Below, piece after piece: positions 1-45,880 of a stretch of DNA of 64,000 nt (position 1 is the stretch's first letter; every line of letters begins with the position of its first letter). Source of the DNA: Aplectana chamaeleonis (Eukaryota; Nematoda; Chromadorea; Rhabditida; Cosmocercidae); the NCBI GenBank assembly GCA_029168955.1, contig JAPDOI010000039.1, positions 1,736,001 through 1,800,000 on the forward strand, in the 5' to 3' direction. The notes under the pieces were generated by a model, which worked only from the letters and a program-made list of their open reading frames with translations, ran no database searches and was not told the DNA's origin. Made by a program: the position numbers and the translations under genes.

Positions 1-45
1 TGCCCACACAGTTCATGTGTGAATAGCTGAGTGATGCAGAACGGG

Positions 46-116
46 GTGTCGGTGGTGTAATGGTAACACTCTCGCCCGGAAAGCGTGCAATGCAGGTTCG
101 AGTCCTGCCTGACATC
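46..116 (+). tRNA. tRNA-like unit 1
   Basis: This is the reference unit. The acceptor is GTGTCGG/CTGACAT with two G-U pairs. The D arm is GTGT/ACAC, the anticodon stem is CTCGC/GCGTG with one T-T mismatch, and the loop is CCGGAAA. The variable region is CAAT and the T arm is GCAGG-TTCGAGT-CCTGC. The formal anticodon is GGA, but position 33 is C instead of the universal U, so decoding is doubtful. The D arm resembles tRNA-Gln or tRNA-Gly. The variable arm is short, unlike a real tRNA-Ser. Confidence 0.5.
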
Positions 117-338
117 TGAGTTTTGCGTTCAACTCAGCTACCTTGTGATAACTTGTGATCATATACCATGCCATAATAAGGCATCAAATATTCAAAAACA
201 TCAAAATTCTGTCTTCAAAAGGCCTCAGCTTAACTGGGTTTAATGCCGATTTGTGCTTACCAGATCATACCCGTCATCGGGTGATTGCTGTTGTGCCCAC
301 ACAGTTCATGTGTGAATAGCTGAGTGATGCAGAACGGG

Positions 339-409
339 GTGTCGGTGGTGTAATGGTAACACTCTCGCCCGGAAAGCGTGCAATGCAGGTTCGAGTCCTG
401 CCTGACATC
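339..409 (+). tRNA. tRNA-like unit 2
   Basis: Identical to the reference unit, with loop CCGGAAA and intact boxes and terminator. Confidence 0.5.
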
Positions 410-631
410 TGAGTTTTGCGTTCAACTCCAGCTACCTTGTGATAACTTGTGATCATATACCATGCCATAATAAGGCATCAAATATTCAAAAACATCAAAA
501 TTCTGTCTTCAAAGGCCTCAGCCTAACTGGGTTTAATGCCGATTTGTGCTTACCAGATCATACCCGTCATCGGGTGATTGCTGTTGTGCCCACACAGTTC
601 ATGTGTGAATAGCTGAGTGATGCAGAACGGG

Positions 632-701
632 GTGTCGGTGGTGTAATGGTAACACTCTCGCCCGAAAGCGTGCAATGCAGGTTCGAGTCCTGCCTGACAT
701 C
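632..701 (+). pseudogene. tRNA-like unit 3, six-base anticodon loop
   Basis: One base is missing from the anticodon loop (CCCGAAAGC). The A and B boxes remain perfect. Confidence 0.5.
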
Positions 702-921
702 TGAGTTTTGCGATCAACTCAGGTACCTTGTGATAACTTGTGATCATATACCATGCCATAAAAAGGCATCAAATATTCAAAATATCAAAATTCTGTCCTC
801 AAAGGCCTCAGCTTAACTGGGTTTAATGCCGATTTGTGCTTACCAGATCATACCCGCCATCGGGTGATTGCTGTTGTGCCCACACAGTTCATGTGTGAAT
901 AGCTGAAGGATGCAGAGCGGG

Positions 922-968
922 GTGTCGGTGGTGTAATGGTAACACTCTTGCCCGGAAAGACGTGACAT
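922..968 (+). pseudogene. tRNA-like unit 4, T arm deleted
   Basis: The A-box half is present, but the variable region and T arm (B box) are lost. The next unit follows after 272 instead of 293 bp. Confidence 0.6.
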
Positions 969-1193
969 GTGAGTTTTGCGTTCAACTCAGCTACCTTGTG
1001 ATAACTTGTGATCATATACCATGCCGTAATATGGCATCAAATATTCAAAAAAACATAAAAATTCTGTCTTCAGAAGGCCTCAGCTTGACTGGGTTTATTG
1101 CCGATTTGTGCTTACCAGATCATACCCGTCATCGTTTGATTGCTGTTGTGCCCACACAGTTCATGTGTGAATAGCTGAGTGATGCAGAACGGG

Positions 1194-1264
1194 GTGTCGG
1201 TGGTGTAATGGTAACACTCTCGCCCGGAAAGCGTGCAATGCAGGTTCGAGTCCTGCCTGACATC
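1194..1264 (+). tRNA. tRNA-like unit 5
   Basis: Intact cloverleaf with loop CCGGAAA. Confidence 0.5.
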
Positions 1265-1486
1265 TGAGTTTTGCGTTCTACTCAGCTACCTTGTGATAAC
1301 TTGTGATCATATACCATGCCATAATAAGGCATCAAATATTCAAAAACATCAAAATTCTGTCTTCAAAAGGCCTCAGCTTAACTGGGTTTAATGCCGATTT
1401 GTGCTTACCAGATCATACCCGTCATCGGGTGATTGCTGTTGTGCCCACACAGTTCATGTGTGAATAGCTGAGTGATGCAGAACGGG

Positions 1487-1558
1487 GTGTCGGTGGTGTA
1501 ATGGTAACACTCTCGCCCTGAAAGCGTGCAATGCAGGTTCAGAGTCCTGCCTGACATC
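1487..1558 (+). pseudogene. tRNA-like unit 6, B box interrupted
   Basis: The loop is CCTGAAA (formal anticodon TGA). An extra A in the T loop (GGTTCAGAGTCC) breaks the B box. Confidence 0.5.
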
Positions 1559-1780
1559 TGAGTTTTGCGTTCAACTCAGCTACCTTGTGATAACATGTGA
1601 TCATATACCATGCCATAATAAGGCATCAAATATTCAAAAACATCAAAATTCTGTCTTCAAAGGGCCTCAGCTTAACTGGGTTTAATGCCGATTTGTGCTT
1701 ACCAGATCATACCCGTCATCGGGTGATTGCTGTTGTGCCCACACAGTTCATGTGTGAATCGCTGAGTGATGCAGAACGGG

Positions 1781-1851
1781 GTGTCGGTGGTGTAATGGTA
1801 ACACTCTCGCCCGGAAAGCGTGCAATGCAGGTTCGAGTCCTGCCTGACATC
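1781..1851 (+). tRNA. tRNA-like unit 7
   Basis: Intact cloverleaf with loop CCGGAAA. Confidence 0.5.
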
Positions 1852-2073
1852 TGAGTTTTGCGTTCAACTCAGCTACCTTGTGATAACATGTGATCATATA
1901 CCATGCCATAATAAGGCATCAAATATTCAAAAACATCAAAATTCTGTCTTCAAAGCGGCTCAGCTTAACTGGGTTTAATGCCGATTTGTGCTTACCAGAT
2001 CATACCCGTCATCGGGTGATTGCTGTTGTGCCCACACAGATCATGTATGATTAGCTGAGTGATGCAGAACGGG

Positions 2074-2144
2074 GTGTCGGTGGTGTAATGGTAACACTTT
2101 CGCCCGGAAAGCGTGCAATGCAGGTTCGAGTCCTGCCTGACATC
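2074..2144 (+). tRNA. tRNA-like unit 8
   Basis: Intact. Base 27 is T, giving a G-U pair at the top of the anticodon stem. First member of the CAGATCATGTATG subfamily. Confidence 0.48.
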
Positions 2145-2366
2145 TGAGTTTTGCGTTCAACTCAGCTACCTTGTGATAACATGTGATCATACACCATGCC
2201 ATAATAAGGCATCAAATATTCAAAAACATCAAAATTCTGTCTTCAAAGGGCCTCAGCTTAACTGGGTTTAATGCCGATTTGTGCTTACCAGATTATACCC
2301 GTCATCGGGTGATTGCTGTTGTGCCCACACAGATCATGTATGATTAGCTGAGTGATGCAGAACGGG

Positions 2367-2437
2367 GTGTCGGTGGTGTAATGGTAACACTCTCGCCCGG
2401 AAAGCGTGCAATGCAGGTTCGAGTCCTGCCTGACATC
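2367..2437 (+). tRNA. tRNA-like unit 9
   Basis: Intact cloverleaf with loop CCGGAAA. Confidence 0.5.
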
Positions 2438-2659
2438 TGAGTTTTGCGTTCAACTCAGCTACCTTGTGATAACATGTGATCATATACCATGCCATAATAA
2501 GGCATCAAATATTCAAAAACATCAAAATTCTGTCTTCAAAGGGCCTCAGCTTAACTGGGTTTAATGCCGATTTGTGCTTACCAGATTATACCCGTCATCG
2601 GGTGATTGCTGTTGTGCCCACACAGATCATGTATGAATAGCAGAGGAATGCAGAGCGGG

Positions 2660-2730
2660 GTGTCGGTGGTGCAATCGTAACACACTCGCCCGAAAAGCAT
2701 GCAATGCAGGTTCGAGTCCTGCCTGACATC
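2660..2730 (+). pseudogene. tRNA-like unit 10, degenerate A box
   Basis: The A box is altered (TGGTGCAATCG), the anticodon stem is weakened and the loop is CCGAAAA. The B box is intact. Confidence 0.5.
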
Positions 2731-2952
2731 TGAGTTTTGCGTTCAACTCAGCTACCTTGTGATAACTTGTGATCATATACCATGCCATAATAAGGCATCA
2801 AATATTCAAAAACATCAAAATTCTGTCTTCAAAAGGCCTCAGCTTAACTGGGTTTAATGCCGATTTGTGCTTACCAGATCATACCCGTCATCGGGTGATT
2901 GCTGTTGTGCCCACACAGTTCATGTGTGAATAGCTGAGTGATGCAGAACGGG

Positions 2953-3023
2953 GTGTCGGTGGTGTAATGGTAACACTCTCGCCCGGAAAGCGTGCAATGC
3001 AGGTTCGAGTCCTGCCTGACATC
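2953..3023 (+). tRNA. tRNA-like unit 11
   Basis: Intact cloverleaf with loop CCGGAAA. Confidence 0.5.
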
Positions 3024-3245
3024 TGAGTTTTGCGTTCAACTCAGCTACCTTGTGATAACTTGTGATCATATACCATGCCATAATAAGGCATCAAATATTC
3101 AAAAACATCAAAATTCTGTCTTCAAAAGGCCTCAGCTTAACTGGGTTTAATGCCGATTTGTGCTTACCAGATCATACCCGTCATCGGGTGATTGCTGTTG
3201 TGCCCACACAGTTCATGTGTGAATAGCTGAGTGATGCAGAACGGG

Positions 3246-3316
3246 GTGTCGGTGGTGTAATGGTAACACTCTCGCCCGGAAAGCGTGCAATGCAGGTTCG
3301 AGTCCTGCCTGACATC
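3246..3316 (+). tRNA. tRNA-like unit 12
   Basis: Intact cloverleaf with loop CCGGAAA. Confidence 0.5.
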
Positions 3317-3538
3317 TGAGTTTTGCGTTCAACTCAGCTACCTTGTGATAACTTGTGATCATATACCATGCCATAATAAGGCATCAAATATTCAAAAACA
3401 TCAAAATTCTGTCTTCAAAAGGCCTCAGCTTAACTGGGTTTAATGCCGATTTGTGCTTACCAGATCATACCCGTCATCGGGTGATTGCTGTTGTGCCCAC
3501 ACAGTTCATGTGTGAATAGCTGAGTGATGCAGAACGGG

Positions 3539-3609
3539 GTGTCGGTGGTGTAATGGTAACACTCTCGCCCGAAAAGCGTGCAATGCAGGTTCGAGTCCTG
3601 CCTGACATC
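3539..3609 (+). tRNA. tRNA-like unit 13 (GAA loop type)
   Basis: Intact, with loop CCGAAAA (formal anticodon GAA). This is the second recurrent loop type in the array. Confidence 0.48.
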
Positions 3610-3831
3610 TGAGTTTTGCGTTCAACTCAGCTACCTTGTGATAACTTGTGATCATATACCATGCCATAATAAGGCATCAAATATTCAAAAACATCAAAAT
3701 TCTGTCTTCAAAGGCCTCAGCTTAACTGGGTTCTAATGCCGATTGGTGCTTACCAGATCATACCCGTCATCGGGTGATTGCTGTTGTGCCCACACAGTTC
3801 ATGTGTGAATAGCTGAGTGATGCAGAACGGG

Positions 3832-3904
3832 GTGTCGGTGGTGTAATGGTAACACTCTCTCGCCCGGAAAGCGTGCAATGCAGGTTCGAGTCCTGCCTGA
3901 CATC
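3832..3904 (+). pseudogene. tRNA-like unit 14, 2-bp insertion
   Basis: A CT duplication lies before the anticodon stem (ACTCTCTCGC). The boxes are intact. Confidence 0.45.
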
Positions 3905-4126
3905 TGAGTTTTGCGTTCAACTCAGCTACCTTGTGATAACTTGTGATCATATACCATGCCATAATAAGGCATCAAATATTCAAAAACATCAAAATTCTGT
4001 CTTCAAAAGGCCTCAGCTTAACTGGGTTTAATGCCGATTTGTGCTTACCAGATCATACCCGTCATCGGGTGATTGCTGTTGTGCCCACACAGTTCATGTG
4101 TGAATAGCTGAGTGATGCAGAACGGG

Positions 4127-4197
4127 GTGTCTGTGGTGTAATGGCAACACTCTTGCCCGAAAAGCGTGCAATGCAGGTTCGAGTCCTGCCTGACATC
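4127..4197 (+). tRNA. tRNA-like unit 15 (GAA loop type)
   Basis: Loop CCGAAAA. The sixth acceptor base is changed (GTGTCTG) and creates a mismatch. Confidence 0.42.
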
Positions 4198-4419
4198 TGA
4201 GTTTTGCGTTCAACTCAGCTACCTTGTGATAACTTGTGATCATATACCATGCCATAATAAGGCATCAAATATTCAAAAAACATCAAAATTCTGTCTTCAA
4301 AAGGCCTCAGCTTAACTGGGTTTAATGCCGATTTGTGCTTACCAGATCATACCCGTCATGGGTGATTGCTGTTGTGCCCACACAGTTCATGTGTGAATAG
4401 CTGAGTGATGCAGAGCGGG

Positions 4420-4490
4420 GTGTCGGTGGTGTAATGCTAACACTCTCGCCCGGAAAGCGTGCAATGCAGGTTCGAGTCCTGCCTGACATC
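4420..4490 (+). tRNA. tRNA-like unit 16
   Basis: D loop GG changed to GC (TAATGCTAA). Otherwise intact, with loop CCGGAAA. Confidence 0.42.
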
Positions 4491-4712
4491 TGAGTTTTGC
4501 GTTTAACTTAGCTACCTTTTGATAATTTGTGATCATATATAATGCCATAATAAGGCATCAAATATTCAAAAACATCAAAATTCTGTCTTCAAAAGGCCTC
4601 AGCTTAACTGGGTTTAATGCCGATTTGTGCTTACCAGATCATACCCGTCATCGGGTGATTGCTGTTGTGCCCACACAGTTCATGTGTGAATAGCTGAGTG
4701 ATGCAGAACGGG

Positions 4713-4783
4713 GTGTCGGTGGTGTAATGGTAACACTCTCGCCCGGAAAGCGTGCAATGCAGGTTCGAGTCCTGCCTGACATC
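4713..4783 (+). tRNA. tRNA-like unit 17
   Basis: Intact cloverleaf with loop CCGGAAA. Confidence 0.5.
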
Positions 4784-5005
4784 TGAGTTTTGCGTTCAAC
4801 TCAGCTACCTTGTGATAACTTGTGATCATATACCATGCCATAATAAGGCATCAAATATTCAAAAACATCAAAATTCTGTCTTCAAAAGGCCTCAGCTTAA
4901 CTGGGTTTAATGCCGATTTGTGCTTACCAGATCATACCCGTCATCGGGTGATTGCTGCTGCGCCCACACAGTTCATGTGTGAATAGCTGAGTGAGGCAGA
5001 ACGTG

Positions 5006-5076
5006 GTGTCGGTGGTGTAATGGTAACACTCTCGCCCAGAAAGCGTGCAATGCAGGTTCGAGTCCTGCCTGGCATC
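5006..5076 (+). tRNA. tRNA-like unit 18
   Basis: Loop CCAGAAA (formal anticodon AGA). One changed base in the 3' acceptor strand (CTGGCAT). Confidence 0.42.
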
Positions 5077-5295
5077 TGAGTTTTGCGTTCAACTCAGCTA
5101 CCTTGTTATAACTTGTGATCATATACCATGCCTTAATAAGTCATCAAATATTCAAAAACATCAATCTGTCTTCAAAGGGCCTCAGCTTAACTGGGTTTAA
5201 TGCCGATTTGTGCTTACCAGATCATACCCGTCATCGGGTGATTGCTGTTGTGCCCACACAGTTCATGTGTGAATAGCTGAGTGATGCAGAACGGG

Positions 5296-5365
5296 GTGTG
5301 GGTGGTGTAATGGTAACACTCTCGCCCGAAAGCGTGCAATGCAGGTTCGAGTCCTGCCTGACATC
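5296..5365 (+). pseudogene. tRNA-like unit 19, six-base loop
   Basis: One-base deletion in the anticodon loop and an acceptor change (GTGTGGG). Confidence 0.5.
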
Positions 5366-5587
5366 TGAGTTTTGCGTTCAACTCAGCTACCTTGTGATAA
5401 CTTGTGATCATATACCATGCCATAATAAGGCATCAAATATTCAAAAACATCAAAATTCTGTCTTCAAAAGGCCTCAGCTTAACTGGGTTTAATGCCGATT
5501 TGTGCTTACCAGATCATACCCGTCATCGGGTGATTGCTGTTGTGCCCACACAGATCATGTGTGATTAGCTGAGTGATGCAGAACGGG

Positions 5588-5658
5588 GTGTCGGTGGTGT
5601 AATGGTAACACTCTCGCCCGGAAAGCGTGCAATGCAGGTTCGAGTCCTGCCTGACATC
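5588..5658 (+). tRNA. tRNA-like unit 20
   Basis: Intact. Starts the second block of the CAGATCATGTATG subfamily. Confidence 0.5.
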
Positions 5659-5880
5659 TGAGTTTTGCGTTCAACTCAGCTACCTTGTGATAACATGTGA
5701 TCATATACCATGCCATAATAAGGCATCAAATATTCAAAAACATCAAAATTTTGTCTTCAAAGGGTCTCAGCTTAACTGGGTTTAATGCCGATTTGTGCTT
5801 ACCAGATTATACCCGTCATCGGGTGATTGCTGTTGTGCCCACACAGATCATGTATGAATACCTGAGTGATGCAGAACGGG

Positions 5881-5951
5881 GTGTCGGTGGTGTAATGGTA
5901 ACACTCTCGCCCGGAAAGCGTGCAATGCAGGTTCGAGTCCTGCCTGACATC
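5881..5951 (+). tRNA. tRNA-like unit 21
   Basis: Intact cloverleaf with loop CCGGAAA. Confidence 0.5.
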
Positions 5952-6173
5952 TGAGTTTTGCGTTCAACTCAGCTACCTTGTGATAACATGTGATCATATA
6001 CCATGCCATAATAAGGCATCAAATATTCAAAAACATCAAAATTCTGTCTTCAAAGGGCCTCAGCTTAACTGGGTTTAATGCCGATTTGTGCTTACCAGAT
6101 TATACCCGTCATCGGGTGATTGCTGTTGTGCCCACGCAGATCGTGTATGAATACCTGAGTGATGCAGAACGGG

Positions 6174-6244
6174 GTGTCGGTGGTGTAATGGTAACACTCT
6201 CGCCCGGAAAGCGTGCAATGCAGGTTCGAGTCCTGCCTGACATC
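6174..6244 (+). tRNA. tRNA-like unit 22
   Basis: Intact cloverleaf with loop CCGGAAA. Confidence 0.5.
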
Positions 6245-6465
6245 TGAGTTTTGCGTTCAACTCAGCTACCTTGTGATAACATGTGATCATATACCATGCC
6301 ATAATAAGGCATCAAATATTCAAAAACATCCAAAATTCTGTCTTCAAAGGCCTCAGCTTAACTGGGTTTAATGCCGATTTGTGCTTACCAGATCATACCG
6401 TCCTGGGGTGATTGCTGCTGTGCCCCCACAGTTCATGTGTGAAGAGCTGAGTGATGCAGAACGGG

Positions 6466-6536
6466 GTGTCGGTGGTGTAATGGTAACACTCTCGCCCGGA
6501 AAGCGTGCAATGCAGGTTCGAGTCCTGCCTGACATC
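6466..6536 (+). tRNA. tRNA-like unit 23
   Basis: Intact cloverleaf. The spacer before it carries several private changes. Confidence 0.5.
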
Positions 6537-6758
6537 TGAGTTTTGCGTTCAACTCAGCTACCTTGTGATAACTTGTGATCATATACCATGCCATAATAAG
6601 GCATCAAATATTCAAAAACATCAAAATTCTGTCTTCAAAAGGCCTCAGCTTAACTGGGTTTAATGCCGATTTGTGCTTACCAGATCATACCCGTCATCGG
6701 GTGATTGCTGTTGTGCCCACACAGTTCATGTGTGAATAGCTGAGTGATGCAGAACGGG

Positions 6759-6829
6759 GTGTCGGTGGTGTAATGGTAACACTCTCGCCCGAAAAGCGTG
6801 CAATGCAGGTTCGAGTCCTGCCTGACATC
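6759..6829 (+). tRNA. tRNA-like unit 24 (GAA loop type)
   Basis: Intact, with loop CCGAAAA. Confidence 0.48.
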
Positions 6830-7049
6830 TGAGTTTTGCGTTCAACTCAGCTACCTTGTGATAACTTGTGATCATATACCATGCCATAATAAGGCATCAA
6901 ATATTCAAAAACATCAAAATTCTGTCTTCAAAAGGCCTCAGCTTAACTGGGTTTAATGCCGATTTGTGCTTACCAGATCATACCCGTCATCGGGTGATTG
7001 CTGTTGTGCCCACACAGTTCATGTGAATAGCTGAGTGATGCAGAACGGG

Positions 7050-7120
7050 GTGTCGGTGGTGTAATGGTAACACTCTCGCCCGGAAAGCGTGCAATGCAGG
7101 TTCGAGTCCTGCCTGACATC
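7050..7120 (+). tRNA. tRNA-like unit 25
   Basis: Intact, with loop CCGGAAA. The spacer has a 2-bp deletion in the CATGTGTG element. Confidence 0.5.
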
Positions 7121-7342
7121 TGAGTTTTGCGTTCAACTCAGCTACCTTGTGATAACTTGTGATCATATACCATGCCATAATAAGGCATCAAATATTCAAA
7201 AACATCAAAATTCTGTCTTCAAAAGGCCTCAGCTTAACTGGGTTTAATGCCGATTTGTGCTTACCAGATCATACCCGTCATCGGGTGATTGCTGTTGTGC
7301 CCACACAGTTCATGTGTGAATAGCTGAGTGATGCAGAACGGG

Positions 7343-7413
7343 GTGTCGGTGGTGTAATGGTAACACTCTCGCCCGAAAAGCGTGCAATGCAGGTTCGAGT
7401 CCTGCCTGACATC
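7343..7413 (+). tRNA. tRNA-like unit 26 (GAA loop type)
   Basis: Intact, with loop CCGAAAA. Confidence 0.48.
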
Positions 7414-7634
7414 TGAGTTTTGCGTTCAACTCAGCTACCTTGTGATAACTTGTGATCATATACCATGCCATAATAAGGCATCAAATATTCAAAAACGTCA
7501 AAATTCTGTCTTCAAAAGGCCTCAGCCTAACTGGGTTTAATGCCGATTTGTGCTTACCAGATCATACCCGTCATGGGTGATTGCTGTTGTGCCCACACAG
7601 TTCATGTGTGAATAGCTGAGTGATGCAGAACGGG

Positions 7635-7705
7635 GTGTCGGTGGTGTAATGGTAACACTCTCGCCCGGAAAGCGTGCAATGCAGGTTCGAGTCCTGCCTG
7701 ACATC
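7635..7705 (+). tRNA. tRNA-like unit 27
   Basis: Intact cloverleaf with loop CCGGAAA. Confidence 0.5.
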
Positions 7706-7927
7706 TGAGTTTTGCGTTCAACTCAGCTACCTTGTGATAACTTGTGATCATATACCATGCCATAATAAGGCATCAAATATTCAAAAACATCAAAATTCTG
7801 TCTTCAAAGGGCCTCAGCCTAACTGGGTTTAATGGCGATTTGTGCTTACCAGATCATACCCATCATCAAGTGATTGCTGTTGTGCCCACACAGTTCATGT
7901 GTGAATAGCTGAGTGATGCAGAACGGG

Positions 7928-7998
7928 GTGTCGGTGGTGTAATGGTAACACTCTCGCCCGGAAAGCGTGCAATGCAGGTTCGAGTCCTGCCTGACATC
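7928..7998 (+). tRNA. tRNA-like unit 28
   Basis: Intact cloverleaf with loop CCGGAAA. Confidence 0.5.
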
Positions 7999-8220
7999 TG
8001 AGTTTTGCGTTCAACTCAGCTACCTTGTGATAACTTGTGATCATATACCATGCCATAATAAGGCATCAAATATTCAAAAACGTCAAAATTCTGTCTTCAA
8101 AGGACCTCAGCTTAACTGGGTTTAATGCCGATTTGTGCTTACCAGATCATACCCATCATCGGGTGATTGCTGTTGTGCCCACACAGTTCATGTGTGAATA
8201 GCTGAGTGATGCAGAACGGA

Positions 8221-8291
8221 TTGTCGGCGGTGTAATGGTAACACTCTCGCCCGGAAAGCGTGGAATGCAGGTTTGAGCCCTGCCTGACATC
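8221..8291 (+). tRNA. tRNA-like unit 29, variant
   Basis: Acceptor TTGTCGG restores Watson-Crick T-A at the first pair only in part. The B box is changed to GGTTTGAGCCC, with the T stem still paired except for one position. Confidence 0.4.
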
Positions 8292-8513
8292 TGAGTTTTG
8301 CGTTCAACTCAGCTACCTTGTGATAACTTGTGATCATATACCATGCCATAATAAGGCATCAAATATTCAAAAACGTCAAACTTCTGTCTTCAAAGGACCT
8401 CAGCTTAACTGGGTTTAATGCCGATTTGTGCTTACCAGATCATACCCATCATCGGGTGATTGCTGTTGTGCCCACACAGTTCATGTGTGAATAGCTGAGT
8501 GATGCAGAACTGG

Positions 8514-8584
8514 GTGTCGGTGGTGTAATGGTGACACTCTCGCCCGGAAAGCGTGCAATGCAGGTTTGAGCCCTGCCTGACATC
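8514..8584 (+). tRNA. tRNA-like unit 30, variant
   Basis: Shares the GGTTTGAGCCC B box with unit 29. The D loop is changed to GGTGA. Confidence 0.4.
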
Positions 8585-8806
8585 TGAGTTTTGCGTTCAA
8601 CTCAGCTACCTTGTGATAACTTGTGATCATATACCATGCCATAATAAGGCATCAAATATTCAAAAACGTCAAAATTCTGTCTTCAAAGGACCTCAGCTTA
8701 ACTGGGTTTAATGCCGATTTGTGCTTACCAGATCATACCCATCATCGGGTGATTGCTGTTGTGCCCACACAGTTCATGTGTGAATAGCTGAGTGATGCAG
8801 AACGGG

Positions 8807-8877
8807 TTGTCGGCGGTGTAATGGTAACACTCTCGCCCGAAAAGCGTGCAATGCAGGTTCGAGTCCTGCCTGACATC
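8807..8877 (+). tRNA. tRNA-like unit 31 (GAA loop type)
   Basis: Has the TTGTCGGC 5' end of unit 29, the canonical B box and loop CCGAAAA. It looks like a patchwork of two subfamilies. Confidence 0.42.
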
Positions 8878-9099
8878 TGAGTTTTGCGTTCAACTCAGCT
8901 ACCTTGTGATAACTTGTGATCATATACCATGCCATAATAAGGCATCAAATATGCAAAAACATCAAAATTCTGTCTTCAAAAGGCCTCAGCCTAACTGGGT
9001 TTAATGCCGATTTGTGCTTACCAGATCATACCCATCATCGGGTGATTGCTGTTGTGCCCACACAGTTCATGTGTGAATAGCTGAGTGATGCAGAACGGG

Positions 9100-9170
9100 G
9101 TGTCGGTGGTGTAATGGTAACACTCTCGCCCGAAAAGCGTGCAATGCAGGTTCGAGTCCTGCCTGACATC
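9100..9170 (+). tRNA. tRNA-like unit 32 (GAA loop type)
   Basis: Intact, with loop CCGAAAA. Confidence 0.48.
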
Positions 9171-9392
9171 TGAGTTTTGCGTTCAACTCAGCTACCTTGT
9201 GATAACTTGTGATCATATACCATGCCATAATAAGGCATCAAATATTCAAAAACATCAAAATTCTGTCTTCAAAAGGCCTCAGCCTAACTGGGTTTAATGC
9301 CGATTTGTGCTTACCAGATCGTACCCATCATCGGGTGATTGCTGTTGTGCCCACACAGTTCATGTGTGAATAGCTGAGTGATGCAGAACGGG

Positions 9393-9463
9393 GAGTCGGT
9401 GGTGTAATGGTAACACACTCATCCGGAGAGCGTGCAATGCAGGTTCGAGTCCTGCCTGACATC
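9393..9463 (+). pseudogene. tRNA-like unit 33, last copy
   Basis: The terminal copy of the array is the most decayed in the anticodon arm (ACTCATCCGGAGAGCGTG). The B box is kept. The array homology ends about 35 bp later. Confidence 0.5.
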
Positions 9464-9519
9464 TGAGTTTTGCGTTCAACTCAGCTACCTTGTGATAATT
9501 GGTGGTAGCCTTCAGACGC

Positions 9520-9647
9520 AGAACAGTGTTGAAAAAAAAACGGATTCGAATGCCTTCCCAGACGCAAAAAAGCGATTTCGAAGATTTCCCAGTGGGAAAG
9601 TCCGGCCTCCTTGGGTCTAGTTGTTGTCGTCGACACCGGCACGTCTC
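9520..9647 (+). repeat. Dispersed repeat fragment at the array edge
   Basis: This stretch, with CCTCCTTGGGTCTAGTTGTT at its core, matches the reverse complement of 16735-16860. It abuts the end of the satellite and may mark the insertion or recombination point that ended the array. Confidence 0.6.
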
Positions 9648-10597
9648 TATGGCAGCGTCCATCCCAGGGATGTGCGGAAATTTCTGTTTTCTGTTTTCTG
9701 TTTTCTGCCCATTTTTGGCCATTTTTTCTGTTTTCTGTAAAAATAGGCAAAAATTGGACAGAAAACAGAAAAAAACGTGCACCTCGATTCGCAGTAGGAC
9801 TTTCCTAGGAAAAAGTGGCCGGACTTATCGAAGCTGAGACGATAGAGTGAAAGTGTACTTCACTCAGGCTCTCTGCAGTTGTACCACGACGCTATACACT
9901 TTTATCTCGCTGTAGTGGTTATCCATAAGGGCACGTGTGGGGTGGTGGGAGGAAACGGTGCTGTTCGCTGTACACGGTCGGGTTCGAACCTCGCCGAAGT
10001 GAACCGAACCAACCAACCCTCCCGGGTCCTTCGATTGGTCACAGATTCATATAGAGAGATGAAGGCACTCAATGGGAAGTCGGCTGTGCCCCTGCAAGCC
10101 ACTCAAAAAGCGTGAACCCCATTCCTCTGAGAAAATTTGCAGCGTCAGTGCCACGAAAGTACCGTGATCCTCGACTGTGGTGCGATAGTTCCGCGATAGT
10201 GCCGCAGCGGCTCCGTGATCAGGCGATTCTGCTGCCATGTCTTGAGCCTCGACATCGCCGCAATAGTACCGCAGCGGCCCCGCGTTAGAACCGCGAGGAT
10301 GCAGCAGCGAACCCGCGTGGAGTACGATGTACTTTCCTGTGTGGTAAAACAAAACTGTCGCCGGTTAAATGTACCTAATTTTGAGGTACAATCCAAATTT
10401 CCTTGCGCGCAAAAGCGGCGGTAAGCTCTGTCCTTATCAGACAAAGGATGAAACGATCGCAAGTGCGAATTTTTGTTCTTACAATTAGGACCCCCCCCCT
10501 AATTGTCTCCTAATTCTTGAATAACTTCATATCACACATTCTCTCGGAGCCGCTGCGACATTATCGCGAAGCCAAAGCGGTACTGTCTGGTCCCCGC

Positions 10598-10986
10598 TAT
10601 ACTTTGATATCGAATGATTTCGAATGGTTTTATAAATGGGTTTTTTCTCTTAAATGACGGAATGGTTCGAGCCGCCTTCGGTTTTCAGACAACAAGTAAG
10701 AGGTAAGCTTCTCGTAAGACAGGTCAGAGCAGAACTCCCTGCATTCACAGAATCAGAATTATCAAATATTCGAAAAAATAGTCGACTTCGAATGACAGTC
10801 GACTATTTTTTCAAATTTTTGATAATTTCGATTTTGCTAATGAAAAAAATTCCACTCTGACATGACTTACGAGAAGCTTATCTCTCACACGTTGTCTAAA
10901 AACCGAACACGGCTTGAATTATTTTGTCATAAGAGAGAACGAGCCCATTTATAGGATCATTCGAAATCATTCGATGTCAATGTATA
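10598..10986. mobile_element. Foldback MITE nested in hAT-like copy A
   Basis: This is a 389-bp near-complete palindrome. Its arms share the GAATGATTTCGAATG and AAGCTTCTCGTAAG segments and meet at TAGTCGACT. The ends are TATACTTTGATATCG and its inverse. Flanks GTCCCCGC (10590-10597) and GTCCCGGC (10987-10994) look like an 8-bp target duplication. Copy B has a single GTCCCCGC (63158-63165 on the minus strand) and no insertion. The superfamily is uncertain. Confidence 0.8.
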
Positions 10987-11644
10987 GTCCCGGCTACGTC
11001 TCCGCAGCAGTGCCGCCGCAACTCCGCGATAGTGCCGCTTCGGTCCCTGTCCGCCCCAAAACGGCACTATCCCGGAGCCGCAGCGGCAATTTCTCTCAGA
11101 GTCAAGCCTCTACAAATACGACGTCGAATGAGCTGCGCATCCCAGTAGGGACTCAGGAAGCCGGTTCATTATCTTTATCTGATAGTGGATACTTTTACCC
11201 AAAGGTTTATCGTTGGCGAATCCCTCAGAGGTAACGCAAAGCAGTAAAGTGAAAGGCAAACTGCAATGTGACTCTATACTAAAAGGTATAAGCCATAATA
11301 CTACTTAACCCCACTATTCATACCCGCTCCCAGCGTATCCGCTTTGGTGGAGCGGGGTAATGTTGGTCCCAACTGTGCCATGCACGCTAAACTCTGAATA
11401 GGTGCTTTAATTCACTGCAACGCAGATGGCACAAAATTCAGTTAAGAGTTAGAGAGATTCTTGGCGCAGTGAAGCGCCTTCAAAGGTGACTTGAAGTCAC
11501 CTGCAAGGATTGGCCTCGAAATGCCGAGTGAGCACTCATTGCGAAGGAGCGCCTTTTATACCCTTCGGTTAGTTTTTTTTCTGAGCAAGAGACTGGTACC
11601 AGAAAAGAACTCGTCAATGATTGATAAGTTTCACCGTGTAAAAT

Positions 11645-11780
11645 TTGAGCGGGCGGATCGCTGGCTATCAAAGCACTTGCGGGCGGATCGCTGGCTGGTT
11701 GCGGGCGGTTCGCTGCATCTCATAGCTCAGCGGTCGGATTGCTGGCTATCGAGGTCCTTGCGGGCGGATCGCTAACAGAT
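11645..11780 (+). repeat. GCGGGCGGATCGCTGGCTATC minisatellite remnant
   Basis: About five imperfect copies of a GCGGGCGGATCGCTGGCTAT core occur at irregular 30-45 bp spacing inside hAT-like copy A. Copy B has no counterpart, so they arose or were acquired after the copies split. Confidence 0.6.
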
Positions 11781-12866
11781 TGGGAGCGGATAACCGCTAT
11801 AGAGCTCGCCGGCGATCCACCCGCTAGCGTGATCAACATTCCCAGGTGCCGCTATTCGCCCGCGGAGACAACGAGAGGCATCGATCCGCCTGGCGAGGTA
11901 ACCTATTGTCTGAGTATACTCTAACGGCAATGGTGCGCGGTACGGGCGTGATTTTCAGCTCTGTGGAGTAGTACAGTCTCAAAACCAGCAGTTATCCCAC
12001 AATCAGTGTCAAAATATGTACACTAAGGAACGGAAAGCTAGCTCTGACTGCACTACGTACTCCTTGCACTGACATACATATGTATTGAGCTTCTAATAGA
12101 GTAATCGACCTTCTTTTGCCTGGGAAAAGGGAGATTCGATGAACATTTGTAATCTCATCGCACTTATAATCTGCATTTCTTAAGCGTCTATACTTTTTGC
12201 TCTGGCCAACTGTAAGGTTTTGAAAATTTAATGAAAGAAGCATAGACCTCTCAAAAAATGTAAAAAAAAAGTTTAGTTTTGAAAAATTTCGTTTAGTCTA
12301 CGCTGAACACCCTTTATTGATTTTTGGAAATTTTCTGTTTTCTATTTTCTGCCCATTTTCGGAGATTTTTTTCTGTTTTCTGTCAAACTAGATTTTCTGT
12401 TCTCTGTTTCCAAAAATATTTTTTCCGCACATCCCTGGTCTATACGTCGCGAGAGCGGGCGCTCCCGCTGTTGTGCGCCTCTCGACGCTCCTCAACGCTG
12501 CCCGCAAATCAACACAGGCAAACACCCGCCACCTCGTGTTGATTCGATTGAAAACGTTTGATCAGGTGATCAATCGCTCGAGTCGGCGCAACGGCTGATG
12601 ATTTCCTATGGTTTTCGACTTTCGTGGACGGATTGTGAAAAACAAGGGCAGTAGTTTTGTTATAGGTTTAGTGCCACCTGCTTTAGTGATCGAGCAGTAA
12701 GCTTGAAACTTGCTGCTTGCTCCGTGGTGCTGGCGTAAGCGTGCGGGAGCGAGCGAGCGAGGGCGCGCGAGAAGGAGCGTCTGTGAGCGGCTAGCGAATC
12801 GTGTGCCCACGATGACCATCGATTTTGCGCAATCGCACGCTCTCGCCACGTATGGACGGAGCCTAT

Positions 12867-16734: not shown

Positions 16735-16860
16735 TCTGAGCTCGTGTCAGTGTCAATGCGAACAACTAGACCCAAGGAGGCCGGCCGGCCTTCCCCACTG
16801 AGATAATCTTCAAAACCGTTTTTTGCCTCTAGGGATGCGTTTAGATCCGTTTTTTAACAC
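16735..16860 (-). repeat. Dispersed repeat fragment, inverted copy of 9520-9647
   Basis: Shares the GGGTCTAGTTGTT core (on the minus strand) and flanking sequence with the stretch at the end of the tRNA-like array. Confidence 0.6.
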
Positions 16861-16945
16861 AGTTCTCCTTATTAGGGCTATCACAAATGTTTTTCATTGA
16901 AGGTTCAAGAACGAAGTTTATCGTGAACAGTGCCTTTAAGCATAC

Positions 16946-26478: not shown

Positions 26479-26733
26479 TACTCACTTTGCGCTGGTATTG
26501 CTACGAATTCGGGAGATCGTTTTTATGAATCATCTAAAACTTGGGCCGTATTCATAGGACCCTTAGAATTTTACAAAGGTGTGCTGGCAATTCTTGAGCA
26601 GAACTTTACTGGAAATGAAACCTGGTCTGTGTGGGGCAACCTTGATAATCCCTCAGGACACTTGTACTACCAGACAGCAGAGCTTGGCGATTATGAGACG
26701 CGCAACTTCGTTTACACTCCATTTGAAAGCAAG
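26479..26733 (+). CDS. Unidentified exon-like open stretch
   Basis: Exactly 85 codons between an acceptor (ATCACTTCTAG, ending 26478) and a donor (AAG/GTCTAC, from 26734), phase 0 at both ends. The protein looks genuine in composition. It has two N-glycosylation sites (NFT, NET) and segments such as WAVFIGPLEFYKG and WSVWGNLDNPSGHLYYQT. I do not recognise the family. It lies on the opposite strand inside the inferred legumain intron. The frame stays open past the donor into a family I MITE fragment (26784-26832). It could be an exon of a nested gene or a relic. Confidence 0.4.
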
Positions 26734-26783
26734 GTCTACTCGGCTAAAGTCGGCACGGATCTAGTTTTGGTTCCTCATTGTGT

Positions 26784-26832
26784 GCTGGCGCAAACTCGGT
26801 GCACATATGCGTGCACAGAAGTTGCGCCATCG
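26784..26832 (+). repeat. Family I MITE fragment, copy 3
   Basis: A short match to the GCGCAAACTCGGTGCAC core of the family I foldback. Confidence 0.5.
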
Positions 26833-27503
26833 CATAATATAAAATCAAAAGCATCAGTGCGACCCGTGCGTACTTGACCCACGAATCATTCGACCCCTAG
26901 CCCGGCAGTCCGACTAGTTGCCGTGGACCTACCCAAAGTATAGGGTTTCGGATTTGCCTCTAGTTTGTGGAGAGGTTGTAAAATTTTCAACTTTCTCGAG
27001 TGTGATTCAAGAGCTCGATTGATTGAATTGCAATTAAAGGCACTGTGCGCCCTCAGCTCTGAATTTGGGTATTCCCATAATTGTATAGTGGACCCCTCCT
27101 GTATAACACTTGCCAAGTGCGAGATCTCAATTCCTCCATATAAGCGATATATAGGCGAAAACTACTAACCCGACCCTTTCAATTACCACCAGTGGCCATG
27201 CCCCATATCCTGAATTTCGAACTAAATCTCGACCAGGCAGACGTATGAATTTCAGCCTCATATTTGATTTTCACTCCCTTGCCGGTCTGTCTCCTCATCC
27301 TGGTTTGCTCTCGGCCAAGCTACAGCGATTAAAAAGAAATACAGGCCTGGGCCAACTCGTCCTCCAAATGTCCTCACAAAAAATAAAATTTTTAACGAGA
27401 AGTCATGACTCTGTTTGTGGGCTCCTAATGTGTACTCCGAAAAATGCAAGACACTAAAATTATAATGCACATAATTTTGCTTACGGTGCCTTCAATGAAG
27501 GAA

Positions 27504-35610: not shown

Positions 35611-36011
35611 GAGAACTACGGAATTTTCATGAAAACAATCCACAATGGCGCTGCACGAGTGAGATGTTGGCCCCGCCCCTGTATCTGCCCGCCCCCTGTA
35701 TTCGCGTCCTCCTCCAAAACAGGGCTGCTGGGCCGTTGCCACCGTCTTCGATGGGTGTGCTTTACCTATTGTACCTATTCCACCACTCACAAAAGTCGCC
35801 GACGGTGGGAATGGCCCAGCACCCCTGTTTTGTAGGTGACGGCAAATACAGGGGCGGGCAGATACGGGGGCGGGGTCAACTTCTCACTCGTGTAGCGGCA
35901 TTGTGGATCGTTTTTAACGCTTCAAAATGCGTAAGCGTTGTGTTCTGTGCCATACCATTCCATTTCCGTAGTTATCTCAACCACGCTTACGAGCGTGTAT
36001 GCTGCCTTTAA
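35607..36011. mobile_element. TTAA-type foldback, family O copy 3
   Basis: Right end GCGTGTATGCTGCCTTTAA. The arms contain CCGCCCCTGTATCTGCCCGC and its inverse. The left terminus is shortened where it meets the MITE at 35117-35610. Confidence 0.7.
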
Positions 36012-39300: not shown

Positions 39301-40028
39301 TAATTTGCCACCGGCACAAAATTCTCACGGAAGTGAAGAAATTTTTCTTACCAGAGTTTTTCATGAGTAGGCCCCAATATCGTGTTATCTCTATCACCGG
39401 TGAGGCTGTATCCCTAATCCCTAGTGTGTTCAGCTTCAGCCGCTCACCTCCGGAGAATGACGGTGTGTGAATGAAAACACACCGCTCTAAATTTCTTTCA
39501 TACCCTACCCTTTATCAACTGGTTATCATCAATTTTGTTTACCGTGATTATTTTTGCCGGTGGCAATTTATAATCGTCTCTAGATGAACGTATGAATCGC
39601 AACCGCGTTTTCGATTTCCACTCCTTTGCCGGTCCTCCCACTTGGGTCAAACACACGATCCGTGACGCTTGGCGTACTCCCAGTTGGGTCCCACCCTCTT
39701 TCCCCGGCGCTTAGCGCACTCCCAGTTGAGTCCCTCACGCTTTCCTCGGCGCTTGGCGCACCCGAAGTTGGGTCCCGCACACAAGCACGCTCATGCCGAT
39801 CATTTTTTTCCGCAGGGCTACCGTAACCCTCCTTCAAAAATTTTCCAAGTGTCAGCTTGGTTATGAGCACATCCTAATAGCCAACAAACATGTTTGTACA
39901 ATTTCGACCTCCCCAGCCACTCCCCAGCGGCTTCTCGAGGAGAGCGGTGTGTGAATGAATGCATACCGCTCCTCCACTTTTTTATACCCCGCATGTTATG
40001 AGCGTGTGTTTACATTCGTTATCATGTT
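39158..40028 (+). repeat. Three spaced copies of a CACACCGCTC...TATACCC unit
   Basis: Segments at 39158, 39472 and 39955 share ACACCGCTC, TTTTATACCC and TTATCATnAATTTTGTTTAC. They lead into the 42-bp minisatellite. Confidence 0.6.
39655..39790 (+). repeat. 42-bp minisatellite, first block
   Basis: About three copies of the unit described at 40075-40775. Confidence 0.75.
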
Positions 40029-40074
40029 TTGTTCAAGAATGGCTACGGTAGCCCTGCGGAAAAAATGTTCGGCA

Positions 40075-40775
40075 TGGGCGTGCTTTTGGTCCCGCACACG
40101 TTCCCCGGCGCTTGGCTTGTTCCCAGTTGTGTCCCGCACAATTTCGACGGCGCTTGGCGCACTCCCAGTTGGGACCCGCACATGTTCTCCGGCGCTTGGC
40201 GTGCTCCCAGTTAGATCCCGCTCACTTTCCCCGGCCCTTGGCGCGCTCCCAGTTGGGTCCCACACACGTTCTCCGGCGCTTGGCGTGCTCCCAGTTAGAT
40301 CCCGACTACTTTTCCTGGCCCTTGGCGCACTCCTAGTTGAGTCCCGAACACGTTCCCCGGCGCTCGGTGAAATTTCAGTTGGGTTCCGCGCAGGTTCCCT
40401 GGCGCTTGGCGCACTTCCAGTCAGGTCCCACACACGTTCTGTGGCGCTTGGCACATTTCCGTTGGGGTTCCGCACACGTTCGCCGGCGCTTGGCGCACTC
40501 ACAGTTGGGTCCCGCACACTATTCCGGTCGCCTGGTGCCTTTTCAGTCAAGTCCCGCACACGTTCCCCGGCGCTTGGCGCACTCTTGGTTGGGTCTCGCA
40601 CTCCCTTTCCTGCGCTTTGCGAATTTTCATTCGGGTCCCGCGCACGTTTCCTGGCGCTTGGCGCACTTTGAATCGGATCCTACACACGTTTTGTGGGGTT
40701 TGTCACACTTCCAGTTGGGTACCGCGCACGTTCCTTTGCGCATGGCACACTTCCAGTCGGACCCCGCACAATAAA
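40075..40775 (+). repeat. 42-bp minisatellite, main block (about 16 copies)
   Basis: The unit contains CGGCGCTTGGCGCACTCCCA and GTTGGGTCCCGCACACGTT. Because 42 is a multiple of three, frames stay open on both strands (14-residue repeats such as SRTRSPALGALPVG forward and VRDPTGSAPSAGER reverse). No splice context, start or known domain supports translation. Confidence 0.85.
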
Positions 40776-40909
40776 CGGTGTGCATACGGTTCCTCATGGA
40801 CGTAAAGGAGACCTACTCTAACGCTTGCAATCAATTCACTCTTATCACAAAACCACTCCATTTCTCTCAATTGGCCAACCATGTTTCTTATCATTCAGTT
40901 TCACCGGAC

Positions 40910-41337
<428 letters not shown>

Positions 41338-41522
41338 ACACATTTTAAAATTCACTAATTTTTCAATATCTCGAGAACCACAAAGCAGATTTTCCTGAAA
41401 CTTGGGGAGTGTTAAGAACCTTTACTGCTCTACATCTTGTGAAAATGCCAAGTTTGGAACTATCTTCCAAACCGAGATTCTGTAACGAGGGGTGTGCGCA
41501 GAAGCAATCCTTTTCCAAATCA

Positions 41523-41934
41523 GGTGCGCGCTTCGCGCGCACCACAATTCCTGAAAGGAGCGAAAAATACAGCTTCCAAAAATCAAAGGATTTCTATGGA
41601 GTTTCTATGAAAGCAATGACTGATAACGCTATCAGATATCTGATATCAAAGGAAATTTTGATTTTCATTTATGAATCCTGAGTAGCCCCCTCAGCGATGT
41701 TTGCACCCAAGCACGAATCTCTGAAGTAATCGATTCCTAAATCAATCCTCTGAAAGGCGTAGTTGGCTGTGCTTTTTCAATGTGGTGAAACAGGAGAACC
41801 GGGTAATAAGTTGTCTATTTACTAGTTATCAAATCAATCGCTTTCTTTCCTCGCTGCTCTCAGTCCTATTATAACAATCATTGATGCAAAGCTGTTGTTT
41901 TTCAAAATATTGTGGTGCGCGCGGAGCGCGCACC
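41523..41934. repeat. Pair of GGTGCGCGC hairpins
   Basis: GGTGCGCGCTTCGCGCGCACC at 41523-41543 and a near copy at 41914-41934 each form an 8-9 bp GC hairpin with a tiny loop. They may bound a 400-bp element, as similar hairpins do in repeat E. Confidence 0.55.
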
Positions 41935-42439
41935 AGATTTGGCTTTAACTCGCCCATGCGCAACTCTGTGATTCCGAATTCAGCTTTCAGAGTGACTGTG
42001 GAGATGCGGTTTTTTCTTCATTGGAAAAAGCGTAAAAAGTTGACTTACGTACCCAACATTGGTTCAGAATGGTTTCTTGGCACTTGAGAAAAATGGTGAA
42101 AACCACGTGATTTTGATCGAAAAACTGTTAATCTCCTTTTTTTTCAGACGGCGTTCACGATCTTGTGTAACCACTTCCCGTTCAGCTAAGAAGCTGATTT
42201 TTGGGCAGGAGGCTGGAAATGGATGCAGCTAGCTCCTATTCAATTTTGGAGTTGAAAGCTCAGTTTTAGCGGAGCCTTAATATTGAGGGCCAAGACGCGT
42301 AAAAACATGTAAACATGTTGTTGTAAACCATCCGACGTTCACTGAACTTAAAAAATGAACTAATGAAAATCAACACGGTTACTGATAAGCTTCTTCCCAA
42401 GATTGTGCCCTGGTCGAGACGGTTGGTGAGAATATAATT

Positions 42440-42655
42440 TGAGGAGTCCGCAGGACGCCGCAGAAATTGGGCGGCCCCCAATGAGAGTGCGCAGGACGCC
42501 GCAGAAAGTGTGCGGGTCCCTGGTGGGAATGCGCAGGATGCCGTAGAAAGTGTGCGGGACCATAGTGGGAGTGCGCAGGACGCCGCAGAAATAGTGCGGG
42601 CCCCCAGTGGGAGTACGCAGGACGCCGCAGAAAGAGTGCACGGGATCTCAGTAGG
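42440..42655 (-). repeat. 42-bp minisatellite, inverted block (about 5 copies)
   Basis: The reverse complement resembles the 40075-40775 unit (CGGCG...GCGCACTCCCA...GGGGTCC). The two blocks lie in opposite orientations about 1.7 kb apart, with the CA tract between. Confidence 0.75.
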
Positions 42656-44554: not shown

Positions 44555-44779
44555 TCATTAGCCATTGGGGGTGTGTATACAAGTCTGTTGGTACCTGCTC
44601 GTTGGTGCCCCTGCTTCTACTGAACCCAGCAGACGTTTGAGTGTACACAGGGAACGTTCGAGCGATATAGCGTGCACAACTATATCGCGAAAGTATCCCG
44701 CACATTGCATAAAGGTGTCGCCGTCCGGCACACTAAGGCCTCTGGTCCATAACACCTTAGGATCCGTACCTAGGGAGTC

Positions 44780-45880
44780 ATGGAGTCTTTGGCCACAAGC
44801 CACAATTTCGCCACCCTGAACTGTCGATCGCTGTCGAGTGATATCCAAAAAACTGCGCTATCCAGACTTCTGAGCTATTTCCATGCACCGTTTGCTGCTT
44901 TACAGGAAACCCGCCTCAAGGATAGACCCGTCATCAGCGTCGGAGAGTACACCATCTACTGCGGCAACGCTGACGATAGGAGAGTGGGAGGCTGTGCAAT
45001 AGCTGTAAGGAAGGATTTCAATGGTATGGTCAAGGAGTTCGGCTCAACGTCGTGTCGGAATGCATTCGTACGACTGCGGGATCACAGAGGATTCAATCTG
45101 TGGATAGTGAGTGCTCATGCGCCCACTGAAACCGCCGAAGACAATTCGAAGGATGCGTTTTATGAGGAACTCAATACGTTGCTGGCCAGGATACCTTGTC
45201 AACATGCTGTTGTCGTGGGATTGACGCAAATGCGAAGATGGGACTTGATCAGGAATCCAGTAGTGGGTAAATGGTTCTACCCAGTGGAGCAAACATCGGA
45301 CAATGGCTACCGCCTTGTCGACTTTTGTGAACGCAGTGGTCTGATTATTGCATCGACATTCAAGAGGAATCATCGCCGCCATCAGCTTACGTGGCAGGGA
45401 CCAACCCGGCTATCTCCAGAAGAGCAGCGGAAGCGGAAGATGACAACTTTGAAACTACAGCTTGACTATGTCCTGACGAGGAATATTCCAGTATCGGACA
45501 TTCGAAGATCTAGAGCTGTGTGGGATGTCGCATTCGATTCGGATCACCGTCCTGTTCTGTTGAACTTCACTGCGAGGATTCATAAGAGGAAGCGAGGGGC
45601 TCAGCCTCTCCAGAGGATTGACATGACAAGTCTCAGAGATGAAGAGTGCAGAAGGAATTTCCGACAACGCGTTTCTATTCACATCGGAGTACGGACTAAG
45701 AAGAAACTTTGCGACGCGGATTCTTTTGTCAAATGCATCCAGGACGCTTCTGAAAGAAGGCACTCCCGGTTGTACAGCCTAAGAAGAAGTTCGCCTACGT
45801 CTCAGAAGAAACAACATCTACCTACAACAGAGTATGTGCTCTCCGAACTGCAGGAAACTTCGTGGAGGAGAAGCGTCTGA
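44780..45880 (+). pseudogene. RTE AP-endonuclease domain
   Basis: A 366-residue frame begins FATLNCRSLSSDIQKTAL and contains AALQETRLKD, NLWIVSAHAPTE and a C-terminal DSDHRPVLLNF. These are the exonuclease-endonuclease-phosphatase motifs, including the catalytic Glu and the final His. The central DxNAK motif is read out of frame (VVVGLTQMRR instead of a GxDANAK-like string), showing a local frameshift. The protein normally nicks target DNA for retrotransposition. Confidence 0.85.

Follow-up and report, generated by a model that had tools for sequence, protein, structure and literature searches.

A head-to-tail satellite of tRNA-like units with predicted polymerase III signals in the nematode Aplectana chamaeleonis

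Tandem arrays of transfer RNA (tRNA) genes in nematodes are already in print, and further published cases may exist. For Nippostrongylus brasiliensis, a strongylid nematode, a ~200-bp tRNA-Trp repeat in about 150 copies and a tRNA-Ser repeat in 90 have been described, with a species-specific spacer (PMC5765664). A cluster survey from 2010 gave Entamoeba as the only reported case of tRNA tandem repeats (PMC2888827). PolIII/TAN, OAX, Rana/polIII and Hy/polIII are tandem repeats that have been discussed for their tRNA-like segments, doubtful in the case of Hy/polIII; PolIII/TAN is described as transcribable in vitro, and Rana/polIII makes up as much as 10 % of some genomes (PMC10702118). The present work concerns a tandem array of tRNA-like units at the left end of a 64,000-nucleotide stretch of the cosmocercid nematode Aplectana chamaeleonis (assembly GCA_029168955.1, contig JAPDOI010000039.1, positions 1,736,001 to 1,800,000, forward strand), hereafter called the window.

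We consider the array to be, with fair probability, a head-to-tail satellite for which a tRNA was the likely seed and whose units are probably kept alike by unequal crossing-over and gene conversion; its transcription by RNA polymerase III (pol III) is predicted but probably not selected. The features on which this reading is based are the following (window positions).

1..9498, + strand: tandem array with a 293-bp consensus (Tandem Repeats Finder, unit coordinates, pairwise identity)
46..116, + strand: tRNA-like segment of unit 1, 71 nt, equal to the consensus (RF00005, 53.4 bits)
53..63, + strand: A box of unit 1, TGGTGTAATGG (motif pattern)
78..80, + strand: anticodon position of unit 1, GGA (triplet listing over the array)
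95..105, + strand: B box of unit 1, GGTTCGAGTCC (motif pattern)
121..124, + strand: TTTT terminator of unit 1, the sole run of at least four T on the + strand of the consensus unit
125..293, + strand: 3' portion of the spacer in unit 1, which together with 117-124 and the first 45 bases of the next unit makes up the 222-bp spacer
877..1148, + strand: unit 4, 272 bp, with a 24-base deletion (unit positions 86-109) that removed its T arm and B box
9348..9498, + strand: unit 33, which stops at unit position 151, the right end of the array (unit coordinates, sequence)

Array layout, polymerase III signals and anticodon

Tandem Repeats Finder gave a period of 293 bp, 32.5 copies and 96 % matches over positions 1-9498. 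Recut in a single frame, the array consists of 32 full units of 272-295 bp and 151 bp of a further one. The first-pass annotation had counted 33 units of 293 bp; the number holds, with one unit being partial and 23 of the 32 full units having exactly that length. Pairwise identity between units was on average 0.970 (range 0.907-1.0), i.e. the long head-to-tail array of near-identical units that characterizes a satellite. The right end lies at 9498, and because the array abuts the left edge of the window, its full length may exceed 9498 bp, with more of it leftward. No double TTAGGC, the telomere motif, occurs in the window.

The Rfam tRNA model (RF00005) scored at or above its gathering score in 32 of the 33 units (36.9-54.2 bits), the miss being unit 4, which has lost its T arm, and outside these units neither this model nor any other family gave a gathering-level match in the window. 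ARAGORN called a tRNA in 31/33 units, two of these with undetermined amino acid. The consensus folds into a cloverleaf with 20 of 21 pairs formed, as in an array of working tRNA genes, and the 71-nt segment is identical to the consensus in 15/33 units.

For the A and B boxes we used motif patterns that we take to be the standard ones. Both boxes have exactly the consensus sequence in 26/33 units, and degenerate patterns were passed by 27/33, unit 4 doing so solely by way of another B-like motif, located in its 3' flank; the earlier estimate of about 28 units with near-consensus boxes was right in that most units carry them, and somewhat high in number. The units without both exact boxes are 4, 6, 10, 16, 29, 30 and 31. 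TTTT is present in all 33 units, including unit 4, which had been thought to be an exception. A box, B box and TTTT in this order did not occur in any of 20000 first-order resamplings of the unit. The second B-box-like motif, GTTCAACTC, lies at unit positions 127-135 (window 127-135 in unit 1), just past the terminator, and is found in most units. Satellites of the PolIII/TAN type are composed of tandem units of a few hundred base pairs whose tRNA-like segment carries A and B boxes, as is the case here, and the strict head-to-tail satellite of tRNA-like cloverleaves with pol III signals that had been proposed from the first reading agrees with the TRF, Rfam, box and TTTT results.

From the promoter boxes and the TTTT run, pol III transcription of the units is predicted. 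Occasional binding of TFIIIC would be expected, as would short transcripts that resemble pre-tRNAs, measure ~85-100 nt and stop at TTTT.

Such transcripts are unlikely to take part in decoding, given the C at position 33 and the varying anticodon. U at position 33 is the rule for tRNAs; here the base before the triplet is C in 33/33 units. The triplet is GGA in 22 units, GAA in seven, TGA in one and AGA in one, and two units have a one-base deletion, so that 11 of the 33 units have a triplet other than GGA. GGA would read serine, yet it fits the body poorly because the variable loop has 4 nt in the Rfam alignment; serine tRNAs carry a long variable arm. An array of working tRNA genes would be expected to keep U33 and a single anticodon fitting the body, whereas five triplet states and C33 were found. 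Decoding Ser or Phe tRNA genes were therefore rejected as an explanation of the array, on account of the drifting anticodon and the C33 of all units. As ARAGORN labels 29/33 of these satellite units as Ser or Phe tRNA genes, the array is also a warning for annotation.

Homogenization and constraint within the array

Variants are shared between adjacent units far more often than expected (38 sharings compared to 11.2), a value reached in 0/2000 permutations, and also at lag 2 (22 compared to 11.0, 27/2000 permutations). In satellites, unequal crossing-over and conversion leave shared variants clustered among neighbours. Unequal exchange is inferred here because the sharing between neighbours lies far above chance, and the array has the local homogenization of a satellite. 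Lags 11 and 12 were mildly raised (85/2000 and 58/2000, respectively; uncorrected for 25 lags), and units 8-10 resemble 20-22 while units 13 and 15 resemble 24 and 26, which would fit the copying of a block of 11-12 units within the array. Unequal crossing-over together with gene conversion between nearby units would keep the array alike.

Distinct substitutions were counted over all 33 units, unit 33 being included up to position 150. There were 25 in the 71 sites of the tRNA segment (0.352 per site) and 65 in the 222 sites of the spacer (0.293 per site), giving a ratio of 1.20 (confidence interval (CI) 0.76-1.91), and 24/71 and 62/222 sites, respectively, were variable (Fisher p = 0.37). For the tRNA segment as a whole, this interval does not include a drop by more than roughly one quarter. 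Private and shared variants were distributed similarly, 18:7 in the tRNA segment and 51:14 in the spacer (p = 0.58). Within the array the tRNA part is not more conserved than the spacer, as it would be in an array of working tRNA genes, and the comparison of substitution densities that had been suggested as a check comes down on the side of an inert satellite. It had also been argued that, with promoter and terminator as well kept as the spacer, pol III output could be large; kept function is not supported by this, since a passively copied satellite predicts the same. We see no sign in the sequence that pol III output is selected for.

Decay of CpG sites was considered as the source of the variation in the tRNA part and was rejected: there were 8 variants at 10 CpG sites in the tRNA part and 4 at 10 in the spacer, and the non-CpG sites were equal (17/61 and 61/212, respectively).

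The same data bear on the possibility that the array is a working source of pol III small RNA, in which a non-decoding tRNA-like RNA would have a function outside translation (e.g. as tRNA fragments or as a decoy) and the copy number would be the dose. The boxes that are exact in most units, the TTTT of every unit and the nearly complete pairing of the consensus cloverleaf are in agreement with such a function. However, the 71-nt segment is no less variable than the spacer, and 7 of the 11 distinct substitutions in the cloverleaf stems break a pair, compared to 72 % expected at random (the 4/11 that preserve the pair are 36 %, compared to 28 % expected). No covariation was seen among the 22 distinct sequences, either in the cloverleaf or in the hairpin formed by its flanks. 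We regard a small-RNA function as possible but unlikely.

It may also be that the array acts on chromatin as a cluster of TFIIIC sites, i.e. as a boundary or attachment site for which the RNA would be unimportant. B boxes are dense, the B pattern being present at the tRNA position in 29/33 units, and a boundary role has been proposed for the tRNA tandem repeat at human 1q23.3, although that proposal rests on a CTCF motif (PMC4041453). The B box of the present array is within error no less variable than the spacer (ratio 0.62, CI 0.15-2.54), and a chromatin element appears improbable.

Several observations weigh against a satellite that is copied purely passively. The boxes and TTTT taken together (26 sites) had a ratio of 0.79 (CI 0.34-1.82), and weak to moderate constraint on them is possible. 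In the 33 units there was not a single substitution at unit positions 117-127, i.e. in TTTT and the seven bases around it. The quietest 39-base stretch of the unit was 89-127, which is not significant after correction for the scan (P = 0.22). The five T-arm pairs, which would also suit a small-RNA function, are invariant in 21 of the 22 distinct sequences, those with letters there. The hairpin formed by the flanks of the cloverleaf, described below, is not accounted for by purely passive copying and may perhaps just be a dyad of the founder. Finally, the arrayed tRNA-Trp of Nippostrongylus is called conserved in the description of these repeats (PMC5765664), which by analogy suggests that arrays of this kind can hold regular tRNA genes.

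The inverted repeat and the origin of the array

The cloverleaf caps an inverted repeat, a feature that is absent from the first-pass annotation. Its arms in unit 1 are as follows.

24..45, + strand: 5' arm of the inverted repeat (flank duplex energy, pair list)
116..140, + strand: 3' arm of the inverted repeat, containing TTTT and the second B-like motif at 127-135

The two arms (unit 24-45 and 116-140) form 21 pairs with a duplex energy of -25.9 kcal/mol, and none of 2000 shuffles was as low (mean -11.1, sd 2.8, lowest -22.4). When two 25-base arms with a 71-base loop were placed at all 293 circular positions of the unit, the top six all surrounded the tRNA. The 121-base stretch of unit 1 had, when folded as DNA, a z score of -2.66, with 1/200 shuffles being as good, and its reverse strand folded as RNA had a z score of -2.77 (2/200 shuffles), while the cloverleaf alone was ordinary (z -0.57, 57/200 shuffles). 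The arms can equally pair around the spacer that separates two cloverleaves (z -3.41, 0/200 shuffles). At both ends the inverted repeat is bounded by TA (unit 24-25 and 139-140).

Selection on this flank hairpin inside the array was considered and rejected. Only 3 of the 15 distinct pair states that differ from the consensus still pair, compared to ~30 % expected, and there is no covariation; because the other 12/15 are broken, the dyad does not seem to be being kept. As a transcript ending at TTTT would hold only part of the 3' arm, the dyad more likely derives from the founder, e.g. from a TA-bounded inverted-repeat element, than from a feature of the transcript. A different use of the same arms would be a source of tRNA-capped hairpin RNA, in which the non-decoding cloverleaf sits on a rod of 28 pairs (7 acceptor and 21 flank) and, in read-through transcripts, the arms close the 222-nt spacer as a panhandle after RNase P and tRNase Z have excised the cloverleaf. 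We give this only a very slim chance. If it were true, a nematode satellite would release uniform tRNA-like and closed spacer RNAs, with the copy number as the dose.

Under the satellite reading, a single tRNA gene or tRNA-derived element would have been the seed, its fold still intact at the time of the spread, and the transcripts, with C33 and a varying anticodon, would be without a decoding role. The consensus was compared to a selection of 13 printed tRNA sequences of eight isotypes, none from a nematode (PMC11277137, PMC11096365, PMC12217144). The best three matches in this set were Gly-GCC of lamprey (43/71), Gln-TTG (44/73) and Arg-TCT (44/74), and no single parent isotype stands out among these 13 non-nematode sequences. 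The lamprey Gly tRNA forms 20/21 of the same pairs and was used as the start for simulated unconstrained drift, in which at least 20 pairs were left in 13 % of the runs at 95 % identity, 3.6 % at 90 % and 0.3 % at 80 %. Because the consensus retains 20/21 pairs, this simulation indicates that the founder cloverleaf was likely intact when the array spread. The array would then have originated either from a near-intact tRNA gene of the same genome or from an ancestor whose fold was constrained until shortly before the spread.

Part of the evidence can be read in favour of a transposon as the origin, i.e. tandem amplification of a piece of a short interspersed nuclear element (SINE), of a miniature inverted-repeat transposable element (MITE) with terminal inverted repeats, or of a short long terminal repeat (LTR) element of the Helenus type with a tRNA-like LTR. 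A MITE with a TA target leaves TA at the element ends, and the inverted repeat of the unit starts and ends with TA. For one family of the Helenus type, tandem arrays have been described in zebrafish (PMC10886601). However, no dispersed copy of the unit was found in the 54.5 kb of the window outside the array (9499-64000; best E 0.32), and an A-rich tail was not seen in the unit by eye. On this evidence from the 64-kb window the array is not a SINE, as had been maintained from the first reading, and a transposon-derived satellite more generally seems rather unlikely to us. Exact-pattern searches with the unit gave no match in a viral collection (3 patterns) or a prokaryotic collection (1 pattern), which is little informative for a nematode repeat.

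Neighbouring features and comparison with known systems

The sequence directly right of the array (9499-9643) is repeated at 16743-16887 on the minus strand with 75 % identity, the homology starting within ~1 base of the array end. About 165 bp from the array, at 9664-12438, there is a possible transposable element, which we take to be hAT-like, whose inverted ends read CCAGGGATGTGCGGAAA (17 bases at either side) and which is flanked by an imperfect 8-base repeat (GTCCATCC / GTCTATAC, 6/8). A partial second copy lies on the minus strand within 62298-64000. Inside both copies, at 9900-10000 and ~63748-63835, there is a stretch resembling a degenerate tRNA-derived head (GTAGTGGTTA ... GGGTTCGA), in which Infernal found no tRNA at E values up to 1.

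Further along the window, minisatellites of 42 bp and 84 bp flank a 432-base CA run (40911-41342) within 39666-42639, and the longest of them overlaps a stop-to-stop frame of 238 amino acids (39955-40671). At 44774-47604 there is a broken non-LTR retrotransposon, whose three open pieces comprise an endonuclease and a reverse transcriptase domain; its last piece is nearest to Necator americanus among the matches listed (best 120 of 406), with 74 % identity over 90 % of the query. Another non-LTR reverse transcriptase, divided between two frames, lies on the minus strand at 54859-56285, and the nearest named match of its downstream piece, among 28 matches, is from Ancylostoma ceylanicum (63 % over 85 %). 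Neither of the two pieces matches at the species level; taken by themselves they would suggest a nematode, perhaps related to hookworms. The long inverted repeat at 35630-35917 matched the MIR839 model with 103.4 bits, far under the gathering score of 200, and reads as a foldback element. For the open reading frame at 26479-26877 a homologue was not found.

The array makes a question testable, namely whether a satellite is transcribed when most of its units contain an internal pol III promoter, and whether this is of consequence. The seven units with broken boxes beside 26 intact ones provide a natural comparison for unit-specific transcription.

Among the described systems, PolIII/TAN (Hirt) from the newt Cynops and Rana/polIII from green frogs resemble the present array in having tandem units of ~360 and ~250 nt, respectively, that contain a tRNA-like segment and lack an evident SINE parent; they are amphibian, and in the passages describing them a flank hairpin is not mentioned (PMC10702118). 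OAX, or satellite I of Xenopus, is likewise a tandem repeat with a tRNA-derived centre, but its unit is described as too long for a proper satellite (PMC10702118). These likenesses and differences are drawn from the published descriptions of the repeats. The tRNA gene arrays of Entamoeba share the long tandem layout, and concerted evolution is held to be the likely process homogenizing them; they comprise nearly all tRNA genes of E. histolytica, with 1-5 types per unit and short tandem repeats in between, whereas the units described here have a drifting anticodon and C33 (PMC2652664). At human 1q23.3 tRNA genes are also tandemly repeated in variable number, but in CTCF-binding units of 7.3 kb in which conservation between human and mouse is limited to the tRNA genes and a 24-bp CTCF site (PMC4041453). 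The Helenus elements are short repeats whose pol III promoter is tRNA-like, and tandem arrays are reported for one family, but they are defined by two LTRs, a primer-binding site, a polypurine tract and target duplications, and are likened to the present array by promoter and tandem layout (PMC10886601).

The arrays of Nippostrongylus are likewise from a nematode and form long tandems in which the unit is one tRNA gene with a species-specific spacer. Compared by description, they consist of tRNA-Trp or tRNA-Ser with a unit of ~200 bp, whereas here the unit is 293 bp, no parent isotype is clear, and C33 and five anticodon states are present (PMC5765664). The A. chamaeleonis array is a step beyond the known nematode tRNA arrays, as fold and pol III signals have been kept while the anticodon has been lost and the tRNA part drifts like the spacer. 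It is the lost anticodon together with the flank dyad that sets it apart from them.

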